Below, piece by piece: positions 816-18,067 of a stretch of DNA of 37,416 bases (position 1 is the first letter of the stretch; each line of letters opens with the position of its first letter). Source of the DNA: a virus. Below the pieces are notes generated by a model. That model worked only from the letters and a program-made list of their open reading frames with translations. It searched no databases and was not told where the DNA came from. The stretch is from the IMG/VR virus record IMGVR_UViG_3300000313_000157, positions 1-37,416 of that record; one strand, 5' to 3'. The translations under genes and the position numbers were made by a program.

Positions 816-1064
816 ATGACAACAATTAAATCAGAGAACAAAACCGCAAAAATCGGTGAAGTAATAGATCACAAGTTAAACATTATCTGCAATTTCAAAA
901 CAACAAGATTAGCAGATGAAATCGATAAGCTTTCTTATACCCATGTGCTTAGAAGCCGTGCTCTTGATGATGAAGAAACAGAATGGGGCATCGGCATTCA
1001 AATAGCAACAAAAGACGTAGAAAAGCTTAATAATGATCTTCCTTTTATCATTAACCGCCTATGA
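816..1064 (+). CDS. Hypothetical early protein
   Basis: An 82-residue protein of unrecognised family. It is polar and mixed in charge, with no membrane segment or obvious motif. Its stop overlaps the start of the next gene (ATGA at 1061-1064), which places it in the replication operon by coupling. Only 36 bases separate it from the regulator upstream, and I see no clear promoter in that gap. Its short length and position just ahead of the helicase-loader genes suggest an accessory role in replication or early takeover, but nothing in the sequence shows this. Confidence 0.6.
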   Translation: MTTIKSENKTAKIGEVIDHKLNIICNFKTTRLADEIDKLSYTHVLRSRALDDEETEWGIGIQIATKDVEKLNNDLPFIINRL

Positions 1065-1534
1065 GAACCAAGAGCAAAAATGCGCTCTGGGATAGTATTT
1101 GGCAACAGACTGATAAAGTATCAAAAAATATCAATGAATATTTAAATTGTGGCTTGCCGACAATTGTAAAAGCCAAGATGAATCCGGTCATTAAGGATTA
1201 TGAGACACTGATAAATATGATAGGCACCTTTGACAAACAAATTAAAGGGGCAGTCAAGCCTGTAAAAATAAAGATGCCGTTTGAGAGTGAAGAGTTTCAA
1301 GGTCTTTGGCAGTATTGGAAAGATTATTTACTTGAAAAATTCAACATTGAATACTGCTCGAGACAAGAGCAAATGGCTTTACAACATTTGTTCGATATCA
1401 GTGATAAAAAAGAACCGGAGGCAATGAAGTATCTAAAGTATGCAATGGCAACGGGATATAAAAACTTTTTTAAAGTGACCGGCAAGACAATGTCTACACC
1501 GGCGAAAGGAGAAAAAGATGGAGACTTTGAATAA
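1061..1534 (+). CDS. Replication-module hypothetical protein
   Basis: A 157-residue, mostly helical protein of unrecognised family. It starts in an ATGA overlap with the preceding gene and overlaps the following ATPase gene by 17 bases, so the three are tightly coupled. In many phage replication modules the gene just before a DnaC-like loader encodes an origin-binding or primosomal adaptor (as with lambda O/P or DnaD-like pairs). The C-terminal part (LEKFNIEYCSRQEQMALQHL onward) contains helices that could serve such a role. This is inference from position only. Confidence 0.6.
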   Translation: MRTKSKNALWDSIWQQTDKVSKNINEYLNCGLPTIVKAKMNPVIKDYETLINMIGTFDKQIKGAVKPVKIKMPFESEEFQGLWQYWKDYLLEKFNIEYCSRQEQMALQHLFDISDKKEPEAMKYLKYAMATGYKNFFKVTGKTMSTPAKGEKDGDFE

Positions 1535-2195
1535 TTTGTCAAACACCTTTGAGGAGGAAAACAAAAAAATAATTGATAGTAGAAATGCATGGCATTCTCC
1601 TAATTTATCCGGAGAACTATATTGGCAACTACTAAAAGGGTATGGAGATCAGATTCTAACAAAGAGACATTCACCGGACTCTTTTTATTGGGATGATGAC
1701 AATAGAGAAGTAATGCAACAACTTTATCTCTACTTAATTGGACATAAAGCCTGCAAACTTGATATTAACAGAGGGATATATATGATGGGTGCAATCGGCT
1801 CAGGCAAAACCGTTCTAATGAAATCATTTATTCAAGTACAGGATTATCTCACAAAACACCGTACGCTTATAGTACATAGCAAGAATTTATTTGATCTCAT
1901 TAAAGAAAAAGGCATTAGATTCCTTTCCGAACGTCCTATGTTCATAGATGATCTGGGACGTGAAAACCACGAGGAATCTGATTTTGGGCGTAAGATACGG
2001 CCTATCGTAGACCTTTTTTCACAAAGATATGAAAACGGTGCTCGGACGTTCGCTACAAGCAATTTCAAAATCGAAACGCTATCAGGCACTGATGATCATC
2101 ACGGTTACGGCAAATTCATCACATCAAGGATGCAAGAGATGTTTAACGTTATTGAATTGCCTGGCAAGAGCAGACGTAAACCGCTAGTGATATGA
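1518..2195 (+). CDS. DnaC/IstB-like AAA+ ATPase, putative helicase loader
   Basis: A 225-residue AAA+ ATPase. Walker A is GAIGSGKT (residues 91-98) and Walker B is MFIDDLGREN with D144/D145. A sensor-like ARTFATSNF segment and a late arginine-rich stretch (FITSRMQEMF, KSRRK) follow. This order and length match the DnaC/IstB family, which loads replicative helicase on phage DNA or assists transposases. No transposase is present and a VirE-type helicase gene follows by an ATGA overlap (2192-2195), so helicase loading or remodelling at the origin is the better reading. The N-terminal 80 residues probably bind a partner. Confidence 0.75.
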   Translation: METLNNLSNTFEEENKKIIDSRNAWHSPNLSGELYWQLLKGYGDQILTKRHSPDSFYWDDDNREVMQQLYLYLIGHKACKLDINRGIYMMGAIGSGKTVLMKSFIQVQDYLTKHRTLIVHSKNLFDLIKEKGIRFLSERPMFIDDLGRENHEESDFGRKIRPIVDLFSQRYENGARTFATSNFKIETLSGTDDHHGYGKFITSRMQEMFNVIELPGKSRRKPLVI

Positions 2196-3436
2196 TCAAC
2201 AACAGTAGAGAAATAACTCATATCACAGCAAACGGTAGCAATACATCCGGACGTGTTGAATCAATCCGAAAATGGATTGATGATAACTATGAGGTGCGTA
2301 TCAATATATTTGATAACACTAAAAGTTACATCGCATCCAAATCACGCGAGTATGCCCACCCTATTACCGAGAATGACATCTATCTGCACATGTTTGATGA
2401 AAACATACCATGCAGCCGGGCATTGCTTAAAGCCATTATAACAAATCCCAATCAGATGCACGCATTTAACCCTATTTTGGATTATTTCAGCAGCTTGGAA
2501 GGACAATATAAAGGCGAAAGCAATATCGATAAATACTGCTATCACATTGTTGCTCATGACTTCTTAGATAAAGAAGAAGGATATTATCAAAAACGGTTGA
2601 ATTACTTGATAAAAAAATGGCTTGTAGCTGCTGTTGCCGGAATATATGGCCAACATTGCAATGATGTGATGATCGGCTTCATAAATGCCAAGGGCGGAAT
2701 AGGTAAAAGCACATTAATTCGCTTCCTGGTACCTGAATCCTTGCAAGACTATTATGTGATATCAGATCGCGACGAAGCTGTGTTCAAAATGACTGACAGT
2801 TTTGCCACAAAATTCATTACCAACTTCGATGAATTTGTCGGCATAACGAAAGCAACCGAGACTACATTTAAAAAGAACATGTCGCTTGCAGAAATGGATC
2901 GCAAGCTGCCTGGTGAATCATTCACCACTCGTGTGCCTAGAATCGCGTCCTGTGCCTTTACAAGCAATAAAACGCAAGAGATGGGTGGATTCCTTTTCAA
3001 TAGTGACAACGGTCTATTACGACGCATCGCTGCAATTGAAATTGACGACATCGATCAAGCATATAGCAATAAGCTAGATGTTGATCAGATTTGGTCTGAA
3101 GCCCTCCTACTCTTTCGTAAAAGCAGCTTCGACTACGTGTGGAATAAAGATGATTTTGCAGACTTCACTAATATGAATCAACGCTATGTCATTGAAACTT
3201 CAGCTACGAAACTCATAAAAGAATATTATCGCATACCGGCTCCTAATGATTTGCCTGTATTTAAAATGCCGTCAGAGATTCTACGTGATCTTCGGGATGC
3301 ACGCAAAATCCATTATAATGATAAAGTTGACGAGCAATCAATAGGACAGGCATTAAGGATGCTAGGTTATGAGCGGACGTCACGCAGATGCAATACCGGT
3401 CCGAGATATGGATATTTATTAACTCAATTATTTTAA
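2192..3436 (+). CDS. VirE/SF3-like replicative helicase-primase ATPase
   Basis: A 414-residue protein with Walker A NAKGGIGKST (about residues 165-174) and a Walker B-like FITNFDEF (D213, E214). An arginine-containing segment (NGLLRRIAAIEID) around residue 278 follows. The arrangement matches the virulence-associated E (VirE) family of P-loop ATPases common in prophages and islands of Bacteroidetes, related in plan to superfamily 3 helicases. The C-terminal 80 residues (DEQSIGQALRMLGYERTSRR) look like a winged-helix domain that could bind DNA. No separate primase active site is obvious. The gene directly precedes the repeat-rich noncoding region, as expected for an initiator/helicase beside its origin. 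Confidence 0.7.
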   Translation: MINNSREITHITANGSNTSGRVESIRKWIDDNYEVRINIFDNTKSYIASKSREYAHPITENDIYLHMFDENIPCSRALLKAIITNPNQMHAFNPILDYFSSLEGQYKGESNIDKYCYHIVAHDFLDKEEGYYQKRLNYLIKKWLVAAVAGIYGQHCNDVMIGFINAKGGIGKSTLIRFLVPESLQDYYVISDRDEAVFKMTDSFATKFITNFDEFVGITKATETTFKKNMSLAEMDRKLPGESFTTRVPRIASCAFTSNKTQEMGGFLFNSDNGLLRRIAAIEIDDIDQAYSNKLDVDQIWSEALLLFRKSSFDYVWNKDDFADFTNMNQRYVIETSATKLIKEYYRIPAPNDLPVFKMPSEILRDLRDARKIHYNDKVDEQSIGQALRMLGYERTSRRCNTGPRYGYLLTQLF

Positions 3437-3795
3437 AGATGGACACAGATATGCACACACTGTATATATATCTTCAATATAATATTCATACTACATATAG
3501 AAGAAGAATATAGATATAATATAAATATAAAAGAAAAGGGAAAATATGAATGTTAGCATACTACCATACTACACCTATTTCAATCACTTACAAAGCCTCT
3601 TATTTACAGTGACTTAAGTATGAAATAATGTAGTATGCATTACAAAATCAATGGGCTAACTACAGCATACTACACCATACGACAAAGAGGTGGGTACTAC
3701 AAAGAAATAATAGATAAGCCACTGAATAACAGTTAATTAACAAGATGTAGTTTGTAGTAACCAACATTTAAACCCAAGAACAAAATAAAAATCAA
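3437..3795. repeat. Iteron-like repeat region, candidate replication origin
   Basis: A 359-base stretch without a gene. It opens with a very AT-rich block (about 3461-3535). It carries the octamer CATACTAC at 3487-3494, 3557-3564, 3565-3572 (two copies abutting) and 3666-3673, and its reverse complement GTAGTATG at 3630-3637. Degenerate copies are CATACGAC at 3676, GGTACTAC at 3693, GTAGTTTG at 3747 and GTAGTAAC at 3754. Repeated octamers next to an AT-rich unwinding-like block, directly behind helicase and loader genes, are the classic layout of an iteron origin. They could instead be operators for the downstream genes. Confidence 0.6.
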
Positions 3796-4302
3796 ATGGA
3801 CATTAATAAACCACTGATAGACATTGACTTGCCACAGTTGTGTATAGATTTTCTATACCATGAGTTCGAAGAACAAGACGGTGGTATATTGCTAAAAACG
3901 AGCAATGATATAGGTAAATACATCAATAGCATGCTTACTGTAGCGGCCACATCACCGGCTGTGCCAATGACAGAGTATCACATCATCATCTATTTACCCG
4001 TAAATGCATGGAATCATCACATTTTCTCAGGCAACTATATAACAATAATTCCCTGGAAACGGAAAATGTTGGAACAATTCATCATGGCTGAATTTAAGTT
4101 GCGAATTCGCGCTTACTTCCTCACAGGTTATGAGAAAGGCTACAGCCAAGACAACATCATTAAAGGCTTTCTAAAAAGCTATTCCATTAAAAACAATACA
4201 GTCAATTACGACAGTATAAAAAAGATGGACTACCGCAACCGTGAGCGCATCACTGAAGAAGTAAATAACGATATCCAATCTCAATTGACATTAAACTTTT
4301 GA
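3796..4302 (+). CDS. Hypothetical protein with C-terminal clamp-binding-like peptide
   Basis: A 168-residue protein of unrecognised family, the first gene after the candidate origin. It contains an aromatic-rich central part (IIIYLPVNAWNHHIFSGNY) and a helical C-terminal half. Its last six residues are QLTLNF, which resembles the hexapeptide form of the bacterial sliding-clamp-binding motif (QLxLxL/F). A clamp tether at the extreme C-terminus would fit a replication or repair role, but no catalytic motif is visible. The ATG at 3796 follows a short A-rich leader, typical of Bacteroidetes genes. Confidence 0.55.
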   Translation: MDINKPLIDIDLPQLCIDFLYHEFEEQDGGILLKTSNDIGKYINSMLTVAATSPAVPMTEYHIIIYLPVNAWNHHIFSGNYITIIPWKRKMLEQFIMAEFKLRIRAYFLTGYEKGYSQDNIIKGFLKSYSIKNNTVNYDSIKKMDYRNRERITEEVNNDIQSQLTLNF

Positions 4303-10049: not shown

Positions 10050-10751
10050 ATGATAGAATTAAAAGATCAAATGACGGTGGTAATTCTGCATAAGAATCAC
10101 CACTTACGCACGAGCCAATTGATATATTTATTGCGTTCGCTTGACAACATTATAGGCGTGGACTTTAAACCGGTGGTAATCGGCGACAAAGTACCTGAGA
10201 ATTTGACGGTTGACAATATTGTTACGACACAAGAACACCCGGCACATGCCATCAGTGAGGCCATTAAGAATAATCCGGACCTGTTTAATCAGGATTTGAT
10301 CATTATGTCTGATGATATGCTTATCATCAATAAGTGCATGATCAGTACAATTCTTCTACCAAAATACAATGAATTTGAGCAGGGCAAATCGTCACATACG
10401 CCGTTTTACGCAAGAAAAGAAATGTTTACCGGGATTACTCCCGAAAATATAAAATCCTGCCCGGTACTCGAGACCTTGACACAAAAGATGTTATCTATTC
10501 CTGAAGCAATGCTTACTCCTGTTGATTTCAGAGTACCACCATTTTTAGGAAATTTCGTTTCAGCATCCCCGGATATGAAACGAGTAAAAGAACGTGCAGG
10601 TAATCGCTTTTTCTTCCACATTAGTGATGATTCGTTCCCTGCTTTAGAACCATTTCTTGCAAAATACTTCCCGACACCAGGCAAATACGAAACGGATATA
10701 AAAAAAGTGGATGATAAAAAGCCGACTAAACAAGATCAAGGCGGTGACTGA
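10050..10751 (+). CDS. Putative GT-A/Stealth-like sugar or sugar-phosphate transferase
   Basis: A 233-residue protein whose plan resembles a short nucleotide-sugar transferase. An N-terminal TVVILHKNHHLRTSQLIYLLRSL region precedes VVIGDKVPENL and TQEHPAHAISEAI. The hydrophobic strand QDLIIMSDDML (S87-D88-D89-M90) follows and recalls the DxD-type metal site and the NDDMF motif of Stealth-type capsule phosphotransferases. The C-terminal 30 residues are charged and probably disordered. It is first in the terminase operon, so it may modify a virion or host-surface component. The family call is tentative. Confidence 0.45.
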   Translation: MIELKDQMTVVILHKNHHLRTSQLIYLLRSLDNIIGVDFKPVVIGDKVPENLTVDNIVTTQEHPAHAISEAIKNNPDLFNQDLIIMSDDMLIINKCMISTILLPKYNEFEQGKSSHTPFYARKEMFTGITPENIKSCPVLETLTQKMLSIPEAMLTPVDFRVPPFLGNFVSASPDMKRVKERAGNRFFFHISDDSFPALEPFLAKYFPTPGKYETDIKKVDDKKPTKQDQGGD

Positions 10752-15140: not shown

Positions 15141-16826
15141 TTAAATTAGGGCCAACCAATGCAATGCTTCTGCTGTAATCTTTTCATACCAGACTTTTTC
15201 ATTATCACAAGTTTCTGCAAGATTTTTTGAACGTTCAAAAAATCGCTTAATCGTCTTTGAGTCTGGTATATATGATGCTTTGTAAGAATCTTCTAACATC
15301 TTTTGAAATAGATTTAATGGCAAAGGGACAATTGTTGACTTACCTCCGTAATAAGAGATATTCATCTTATGTAATGCATAGAAATGAGCAATGCAAGCTT
15401 CGTTAATTGCAGGAGCTACGAACAAACAATATGCAGGTTTATTCATTTCTTTTTTTAATTTAGCAAGGTGGCGCGTTACCGGTTCTCCTTCCATCTCATA
15501 CTGCCGTTGCCCAGATTGCATTGTTACTTCAACCGCGAGTCCGAAATCACCATAGTCACAAATAATATCTGCCATATTTCCTTGCGCTGTAGACATTGGA
15601 TTACCAAAATCGTCAAATTTTAAGTTCGCTTTTATCTCCCCTCCATCTAACATTGTCATTGCTCTCCAAGTATTCCACTCCAACATCAAAGGAGAATCAT
15701 ATAAAGATTTTTTAGTTATTTGAGAAAACATTGTTTGAATTTCATCATACTGCTTATAATCTTTCATTTCCGATACTTGCTTAGCAAGAATACACTCTTT
15801 CCTATCCGCCATTTCTTTGTCAAGAAGTTCTTTAAGTACAGGTAAAGAAGCAGATTCGTCCACATGAATATTACTAAATTCAGAATGAAATTTATCCAAC
15901 AATAATTCACGGTTGTCTGTTAGAAGTTGCGGCAGTTGGGCATTACCCAGATATGCAACATAGTCGTTTTCATTATCTACAAAACACGGTTTTCGATCTA
16001 TATTTTTCAAAAAATAGTCTACATCTTTTACTTTTTCCGCTGCAATAGATATAGATTTTCTTGAAGACGAAATATTAACCAAACCAGTTGCTCGCAAATA
16101 TCTAAAACAAGCATCAGTATAGTCACGCATATTACTTTCTTTCGCCCTCAAAAAATTATCCACAGAACAAATCTTGCTTTCACGTATTTTGATTTTTCCT
16201 GTTGCTATCTCATCTTGGTAAATTTGCATTAACTCTCGTCGCATATATCCACGATAAAAGGCTTTATACTTGCCTTCATTTTGAACATTTTCTACACGAA
16301 ATTGTTCAATTTTAGCAACAATAGCATCAAACATACGATAATCAACTAATTGCAAACCAAAAATCTTTACTTCATCAAACTTCAATGAACCAAAATGGCG
16401 AATTAAACGAAATAGCTCAAGATAAGGCTTTACCCAAAATTTAGCAGCTTCATCAGAGAATTTATGAAATGGGGATGGAAGTTGAAATTTCAAAAGCTGA
16501 CGAAGAAATATTTCTTCTTTACGTTTGGATTGCACTAGCTCTTGCCCAGCAGGCGTTAATGATATCGTTGGTGACAATATCACAAACCCCAAAGATTTAG
16601 GTGCACGAGTCATCCTATCTCTTGCGCTAAGCGCAGGATCTTTTGCACCTCTTCCATTGAAGAAGCTCTCTTCTTTCAATAGTTCCATAAACGCTATTTG
16701 CGTGTCAACGTTCCATACTTGTCCCCCAAAATGAGTATTTAACAATTCTATTTCAGGAATCATTTTAGATGGAGTTCGTGGAGATGTCGTAATAAAAACG
16801 ACTTTACAATCTCTTTTTTTTACCAT
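15141..16826 (-). CDS. AlwI-family type IIS restriction endonuclease
   Basis: A 561-residue protein. The N-terminus (FITTSPRTPSKMIPEIELLN, then GGQVWNVDTQIAFMELL) and the segment MADIICDYGDFGLAVEVTMQ, then RQYEMEGEPVTRHL (D420, E433 and E444/E446 region) match the AlwI/BstNBI-type endonucleases as I remember them. AlwI itself cuts beside GGATC. The order is N-terminal DNA recognition and C-terminal PD-(D/E)xK-type nuclease. It follows the methylase gene by 21 bases on the minus strand, last in a three-gene operon. Full length and intact motifs suggest activity. The true target is not known from sequence. Confidence 0.75.
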   Translation of the reverse strand: MVKKRDCKVVFITTSPRTPSKMIPEIELLNTHFGGQVWNVDTQIAFMELLKEESFFNGRGAKDPALSARDRMTRAPKSLGFVILSPTISLTPAGQELVQSKRKEEIFLRQLLKFQLPSPFHKFSDEAAKFWVKPYLELFRLIRHFGSLKFDEVKIFGLQLVDYRMFDAIVAKIEQFRVENVQNEGKYKAFYRGYMRRELMQIYQDEIATGKIKIRESKICSVDNFLRAKESNMRDYTDACFRYLRATGLVNISSSRKSISIAAEKVKDVDYFLKNIDRKPCFVDNENDYVAYLGNAQLPQLLTDNRELLLDKFHSEFSNIHVDESASLPVLKELLDKEMADRKECILAKQVSEMKDYKQYDEIQTMFSQITKKSLYDSPLMLEWNTWRAMTMLDGGEIKANLKFDDFGNPMSTAQGNMADIICDYGDFGLAVEVTMQSGQRQYEMEGEPVTRHLAKLKKEMNKPAYCLFVAPAINEACIAHFYALHKMNISYYGGKSTIVPLPLNLFQKMLEDSYKASYIPDSKTIKRFFERSKNLAETCDNEKVWYEKITAEALHWLALI

Positions 16827-16847
16827 TTTTAGCTGTATAAATTAGAA

Positions 16848-17759
16848 CTAAACTAAAATAGTTTCTTCTTGAACACTAAACTTTGGAAACAATATTTTAT
16901 CTCCTGTATCATAATTGGAGACTAAGATATGTGTTGCAACTGACTTAAAGCGGTTTCTAATATTTACAGCATAAGTCTTAGCATACTCATCAATAATCAT
17001 ATCACCATAAAGTTTCTCCGTTAATGGTGTCCGTCCTATAACCAACAAAGCCTTACATTTCAGATTGCGAAAATCATTAGCAAGCGCGATATGACAATCA
17101 TCATTAAAACCGCCTTTATACTCCTCATTTCCATAATCAGAGAAAACACAATCATAAGGTGGATCTAAAAACATAAAATCATCTTTATCTACCATCTCAA
17201 ATATATTTTTGTAATCTGTATTGAAAATTTCTGTTTTTGAAAGTAATTGACTATGTTGAGAGGTTACAAGTGACGTGTTTAAATGTTTATATCTTCCAAA
17301 AGGCACATTAAATTCACCTTTAGCATTGTACCTAATCATACCCGAATAAGCGGTTTTATTAATGAAAAAATAAAGCAATGCATCCGAATACGTCTTATCA
17401 CCTATACCATTAAACATCCCTCTTAGTTGATAATACAATCTTTCATTTCTGTCCTCTACTCGTTCATTTGGGTTTATTTTCTTTAAAGCATCGAAATGTT
17501 TGCGGTTGGTTTCATAACATTTTTCTAGCTCATCAAGCTCGACACGCAAAGTTGAATAATTTAACTTTACGCCAGAATAAAACGCAATTAATTTAGCGTT
17601 TATGTCATTTATTATAGACCTTTTAGGCTCTAAATAGAAATATAAAGCACCACCACCAAAGAACGGTTCAATGTACCTTCCCGTGTAATGAGGAATATGA
17701 GCTAGTATATGTGGAATTTCTTTTGATTTTCCACCTCTATATTTAATTAGCGGTTTCAT
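16848..17759 (-). CDS. D12-class N6-adenine DNA methyltransferase
   Basis: A 303-residue Dam-like enzyme: KYRGGKSKEI at the N-terminus, motif I EPFFGGGAL (31-39), a GEFNVPFGRYK segment (148-158) typical of the M.DpnII/MboI/Dam group, and catalytic motif IV DPPY (199-202). It transfers methyl groups from S-adenosylmethionine to adenine and would protect the phage from the adjacent nuclease. A Dam-type enzyme acting on palindromic GATC would protect both strands of an asymmetric GGATC site, explaining why one methylase is enough for a type IIS partner. GATC specificity is inference. It starts five bases after the regulator gene. Confidence 0.85.
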   Translation of the reverse strand: MKPLIKYRGGKSKEIPHILAHIPHYTGRYIEPFFGGGALYFYLEPKRSIINDINAKLIAFYSGVKLNYSTLRVELDELEKCYETNRKHFDALKKINPNERVEDRNERLYYQLRGMFNGIGDKTYSDALLYFFINKTAYSGMIRYNAKGEFNVPFGRYKHLNTSLVTSQHSQLLSKTEIFNTDYKNIFEMVDKDDFMFLDPPYDCVFSDYGNEEYKGGFNDDCHIALANDFRNLKCKALLVIGRTPLTEKLYGDMIIDEYAKTYAVNIRNRFKSVATHILVSNYDTGDKILFPKFSVQEETILV

Positions 17760-17764
17760 ACTTC

Positions 17765-18067
17765 TTATTTTTTGATTGTTAGTTTATATTCCATCATATT
17801 TTCAGCAACTATATTTAAGACATTATCTGCATTGTCTTCTCCACCGACAACTTCATATACCTTATCTGCAAGCCAGAGTGTAAGTAATTCTTTTTCATCG
17901 GTTTTAAATATTCTGGCAAGAGCAATTACTTGATTACGCGTAGCATTACGGTCGCCACGTTCTATTTTGCAATACATGGCGTTGTCTATATCAAGAGCTG
18001 CGGATACCTGACGTTGAAGCATCTGACGGCTTTCCCTTAATTGCTTAATTTGAGTTGTAAATAACAT
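17765..18067 (-). CDS. XRE-family regulator of the R-M operon (C-protein-like)
   Basis: A 100-residue protein with an N-terminal XRE helix-turn-helix (residues about 6-55: IKQLRESRQMLQRQVSAALD, then MYCKIERGDRNATRNQVIALA) and a helical C-terminal tail. It is first in the operon, five bases ahead of the methylase. Such proteins time methylase and nuclease expression in many R-M systems. A 13-base palindrome lies inside its own promoter (18114-18126) and is a plausible autoregulatory operator. Confidence 0.8.
   Translation of the reverse strand: MLFTTQIKQLRESRQMLQRQVSAALDIDNAMYCKIERGDRNATRNQVIALARIFKTDEKELLTLWLADKVYEVVGGEDNADNVLNIVAENMMEYKLTIKK

Follow-up and report, generated by a model that had tools for sequence, protein, structure and literature searches.

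A probable SaPI-type replication origin of iterons directly behind the vapE gene of a Bacteroidales prophage

We identify positions 3437–3795 of a Bacteroidales prophage as its very likely replication origin (probability ~0.87), organized as a SaPI-type rep–ori module with the helicase VapE as initiator; use of the origin is inferred. The iteron array, its layout, its linkage to vapE, the covariation between a VapE residue and the repeat word, and the protein fold are established directly from sequence. The window analyzed here, 37,416 bp in total, corresponds to G000:C16:39930–77345 (minus strand) in a 2.0-Mb Bacteroidales MAG of 57% completeness, and thus rests on one low-completeness MAG. 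It represents a complete prophage, as judged from its genes for head maturation protease, tape measure and tail fibre and from the adjoining host genes, such as cytidylate kinase and SusC/SusD-type genes. Identity as a PICI was rejected, since such a satellite is expected to rely on a helper and to lack the virion genes that are present here. The left part of the window encodes two HTH proteins (1–213 and 210–779), the 157-residue protein p157, a DnaC-like loader and VapE (Table 1).

The gap behind vapE extends for 359 bp, from the vapE stop (3436) to an ATG at 3796, and contains no plausible gene. All five exact copies of the octamer CATACTAC in the window lie within 187 bp of this gap (3487–3673), at 3487+, 3557+, 3565+ (abutting the preceding copy), 3630− and 3666+; 0.69 copies are expected in the window by chance, and none of 100 dinucleotide shuffles reached five. 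Five degenerate copies surround the exact ones in the same gap, and the repeat unit is better given as the 9-mer CATACTACA than as an octamer. AT content reaches 72–82% at 3437–3556 and 75% at 3702–3745, relative to 61.6% for the whole window. The original prediction of five exact copies (two abutting), at least four degenerate ones and an AT-rich block in a region without genes therefore held on each count; the GC-skew check it proposed was uninformative, with no clear switch at the locus. A host-wide motif was rejected, because only the five copies in the window are clustered among the 40 in the 2.0-Mb genome. A lambda-type origin, with iterons inside the initiator gene, was likewise rejected, as none of the five exact copies falls within vapE: all are in the gap that follows it.

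Table 1. Replication genes and proposed origin elements of the prophage (window coordinates)
Feature	Coordinates	Strand	Basis
p157, 157 aa, unknown function	1061..1534	+	aligned with 3 relatives
DnaC-like helicase loader (AAA+)	1518..2195	+	phrog_50, E 2e-12; aligned with relatives
vapE, self-loading SF3/D5-type helicase, proposed origin-binding initiator	2192..3436	+	PF05272, E 3e-16
VapE C-terminal winged helix, residues 356–412, proposed iteron-binding domain	3257..3427	+	AlphaFold model
Pro404 codon, wing; proposed specificity residue (Pro with CTAC-type iterons)	3401..3403	+	covariation
Iteron CATACTACA, extra copy ahead of main array	3487..3495	+	
AT-rich block, 82% AT	3496..3556	.	
Iteron CATACTACC, abutting direct pair, copy 1	3557..3565	+	
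Iteron CATACTACA, abutting direct pair, copy 2	3565..3573	+	
Inverted iteron	3629..3637	-	
Degenerate iteron CTAACTACA	3656..3664	+	
Iteron CATACTACA	3666..3674	+	
Degenerate iteron CATACGACA	3676..3684	+	
Degenerate iteron GGTACTACA, final copy of direct group	3693..3701	+	
AT-rich spacer, 75% AT; candidate unwinding region	3702..3745	.	iteron start-to-start 53 bp
Inverted degenerate iteron, closing pair, copy 1	3746..3754	-	
Inverted degenerate iteron, closing pair, copy 2	3753..3761	-	

The AlphaFold model of VapE (pLDDT 82.7) was built from only 8 sequences. Its nearest solved structure is 7pds (E 1e-15, TM 0.60–0.63), in which PriRep1, a protein of a staphylococcal pathogenicity island (SaPI), is bound to dsDNA. 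The VapE sequence also matches the 7pds chain (E 7e-10), which is named 'Similar to D. nodosus vapE'. The predicted C-terminal winged helix comprises helices 360–369 and 381–391 and wing strands 395–400 and 403–412. No Pfam family matched p157, which accompanies the loader and vapE at 21 of the 23 close-family loci and is possibly a primosome component.

Relatives of the module were recovered by alignment-based scans, with VapE up to 62% identical. Scanning viral and genome contigs with single VapE sequences gave no matches, alignments being needed; the A6 scan of viral contigs gave no match, and a distant blastn search of phages detected nothing related to the replication module. Three relatives from other Bacteroidales genomes (VapE 38–48% identical) keep the order p157–loader–vapE, and two of them carry an array at the same place with different words; the third (L035/L074) has none, the gap there being only 27 bp. 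The layout was analyzed in 19 close-family arrays with words picked by hand from the consensus, and these words vary (e.g., CATACTACA, CTTACAACC, CTTACAACA, CTTTCAACC and CTTGCTACA). The main array starts with two direct copies 8–9 bp apart (only one in L163), followed 40–64 bp further by a single inverted copy and then by a direct group with copies 9–13 bp apart, the last of which mostly lies 16–27 bp further. After AT-rich DNA, the arrays end with one or two inverted copies, 7–8 bp apart. In 15 of the 19 arrays, the closing inverted copy lies 52–54 bp, or about five helical turns, from the main group's last direct copy, the exceptions being L036, L040, L042 and L075. The same module, with the word TTACAACC, is found in a prophage of the isolate Bacteroides sp. 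GM023. No array was found in the available DNA of the close relatives L035/L074, L043, L177, L178, L183, L186, L188 and L199. The alignment with relatives that had been proposed as a check thus revealed arrays behind vapE across widely diverged relatives and their absence from the available DNA of several close ones.

The generality of this arrangement was assessed in 270 loci, which yielded 105 VapE genes with a complete C-terminus, non-redundant at 90% identity. An array was defined by a simple 7-mer count, as at least five copies of one 7-mer on either strand within 450 bp after the vapE stop. Arrays meeting this definition followed 54 of the 105 genes, compared with 30 of 2582 control windows from the same loci; just upstream of vapE, at least five copies of one 7-mer were reached in 1 of 93 windows. 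With 100 dinucleotide shuffles per gene, 55 of the 105 downstream windows were significant at p ≤ 0.01, leaving about half of the VapE homologues tested without a significant array within 450 bp. Arrays accompany stand-alone and N-terminally extended VapE alike, and also occur in Firmicutes phages (Bob, LfeSau). Where an ORF lies directly behind vapE, the array is in some loci (L046, L077, L083, L142 and L164) displaced beyond it rather than lost. The genes that come after the array differ among relatives (next168, DnaA domain IV, VRR-Nuc or Holliday resolvase), and the array therefore belongs to vapE; the alternative that it is a property of the next gene was rejected on the same ground. As a separate observation, the gene directly behind the array in one close relative encodes a stand-alone DnaA domain IV (L036:9768–10250; Bac_DnaA_C, E 2e-18), and a similar protein follows in L047/L075.

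These data bear on the possibility that the repeats are operators through which VapE or a phage repressor controls vapE or the next operon (3796 onward), with the origin lying elsewhere. In favor of this reading, the array sits between two operons just ahead of a gene start, and the two HTH proteins are encoded nearby; initiators often autoregulate. Against it, the array follows vapE and not the variable next gene, it stands behind vapE rather than before it, the constant opposed arrangement around 53 bp of AT-rich spacer does not resemble an operator, and the specificity residue described below resides in the helicase. We consider the operator reading unlikely and retain the origin.

To identify which protein tracks the repeat word, each VapE column was compared with the word class (CTAC or non-CTAC) in 55 non-redundant VapE proteins with arrays. 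Residue 404, placed by the AlphaFold model in the second wing strand of the winged helix, was the best of 390 columns in this unbiased scan. With motifs oriented by the strand of the site nearest vapE, Pro404 accompanied 18 of 18 CTAC arrays versus 3 of 37 others (Fisher 9e-12); the runner-up was residue 399 (6e-6), and all other columns were above 4e-4. Two of the three exceptions, L196 and L093, were orientation errors of this rule: read the other way round, their words are TGCTACA and CTTGCTACC, respectively. After correction, Pro404 was found with 20 of 20 CTAC arrays versus 1 of 35 (4e-14), with L077 and L083, which contain CTAC in the opposite orientation only, kept as non-CTAC. The proline rule was first spotted by eye and afterwards tested on more loci; all CTAC-type arrays added thereafter (L090, L093, L196, L205, L206, L257 and L258) have Pro. 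On the best helicase-core tree, built from residues below 350 and thus excluding the C-terminal domain, word class changes at least 12 times. Residue 404 follows the word in 6.9 of 7 independent pairs on average, taken on well-supported branches, and never goes against it; the next-best column scored 3.6. Word and residue also switched together in two sister pairs, window/L045 and L057/L054 (the latter 84% identical).

The rule has exceptions. L169 violates it, L169 and L171 have a proline near position 404 with a non-CTAC word, and LfeSau and FPSV-F8 depart from it. In L059, a separate 147-codon frame between the full vapE and the array (10275–10718), immediately ahead of the array, encodes a second VapE C-terminal domain. 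This placement favors the proposed origin reading, although the copy has Pro with the word TACAACC/TACACCC, contrary to the rule; the free DNA-binding domain could possibly act as a regulator or competitor. Six close relatives (L177, L178, L183, L186, L188 and L199) have the proline and no recognizable array within 3 kb downstream.

A second alternative accepts an iteron origin and assigns recognition of the repeats to the DnaC-like loader or p157, with VapE merely the helicase. It is favored by the three genes staying together in the close family. In the 18 loci with all three proteins, however, VapE 404 alone of 806 columns separates the word classes perfectly (p 2e-5), whereas the loader and p157 contain no column that tracks the word (best p 3e-3 and 4e-3, respectively). 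Moreover, arrays persist where VapE has a long N-terminal extension and in other gene contexts, and the covarying residue lies in the predicted VapE wing. This alternative is very unlikely, and the original suggestion that neighbors of the VirE-type protein might be the initiator is correspondingly disfavored. A third alternative takes the array for a partition (centromere-like) site or some other structural element of the DNA, a role that a cluster of repeats in both orientations would fit as well; it is all but excluded, as no partition gene was recognized among the annotated neighbors and the covariation partner is a helicase. VapE as initiator remains the best reading, because the array lies behind vapE across relatives, the layout is fixed while the word changes, and a winged-helix residue tracks the word. 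The covariation gives strong support to iteron binding by the VapE winged helix, although binding is unmeasured; it indicates that VapE reads the repeats and does not show that replication starts there. The original prediction, in which the VirE-type protein initiates replication at an iteron origin, is thus supported by the layout, residue 404 and the PriRep1 match, with origin use still inferred.

The proposed mechanism goes beyond these observations. VapE would assemble into a hexameric helicase of the SF3/AAA+ type and use its C-terminal winged helix to bind the 9-bp iterons that immediately follow its gene. As inferred from the layout and by analogy with SaPIs, binding to the two opposed iteron groups would position helicase rings around the AT-rich spacer, which would then be melted. 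Unwinding may then be done by VapE alone or be passed on to the host DnaB helicase with the help of the DnaC-like loader and p157, and replication would start at the array. DNA binding, hexamer formation, melting, loading and use of the origin in the cell are all inferred, without replication, binding or read-depth data.

The closest precedents are SaPI Rep, whose C-terminal domain recognizes an iteron origin directly downstream of its own gene (PMC7581432), and PICI origins, which lie immediately 3' of the initiator gene, contain an AT-rich region between two iteron sets and sustain replication of a plasmid (PMC6092414). The prophage shares with them a VapE/Pri-Rep-type AAA+ helicase (PF05272, with 7pds the top match by fold and by sequence), iterons just past the 3' end of the initiator gene in the window and its relatives, and a C-terminal domain predicted to read the origin, here on the basis of sequence and model only, with no binding data. 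As in PICI origins, an AT-rich region lies between iteron groups, here as a 53-bp spacer that separates the direct group from the inverted pair. All sequence-testable features of a SaPI-type rep–ori module are therefore met. The prophage differs in being complete, with its own head, tail and tape-measure genes, in belonging to Bacteroidales, in having a separate DnaC-like loader and p157, and in its kept ++/-/+++/+/-- layout and visible residue/word rule. In SCCmec, the C-terminal DNA-binding domain of the helicase Cch2 similarly acts on direct repeats directly downstream, in a putative origin (PMC7581432), but Cch2 has a Primase_Cterm-type domain, as SaPI5 Rep does, and works with CCPol-MP, and there are only three 5-nt iterons. 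Phages of Paenibacillus, Lactobacillus and Flavobacterium (Bob, LfeSau, pippi8-1 and FPSV-F8) also have 7–9 copies of a 7-mer behind vapE, but with other words and a VapE only ~22–25% identical. The Sfi21 phage origin is a possible precedent, for which no text was found in the open-licence literature searched. Within the same literature, no paper joining VapE with iterons and no description of iteron origins of Bacteroides prophages was found, which is weak evidence given that restriction.

A bolder reading, which we favor by a narrow margin as one joint claim, is that VapE-type helicases of phages and mobile elements in several phyla generally carry an iteron origin right behind their gene; that the origin architecture is fixed per family while the word evolves by concerted replacement; that a readable code, located in the wing of the winged helix, follows the word; and that Pro versus Thr/Val/Ser at position 404 (window VapE numbering) sets the central base of the repeat. 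If true, the origins of many such phages and islands could be located from their sequence, a family annotated as 'virulence-associated' would be one of replication initiators whose specificity follows a rule open to testing, and the two sister pairs would represent a natural experiment on initiator and origin changing in step.

Further features were observed in and around the prophage. A restriction–modification module (15141–18067, minus strand), encoding an AlwI-type endonuclease, a D12 adenine methyltransferase and an HTH regulator, lies on the opposite strand within the structural gene block and is marked by a GC drop and inverted skew. Past the window end on the same contig (L032:15625–19215), near the window's far end, a phage-type integrase is encoded near 3-dehydroquinate synthase, together with a CBASS-like SMODS nucleotidyltransferase with SLATT effector genes.
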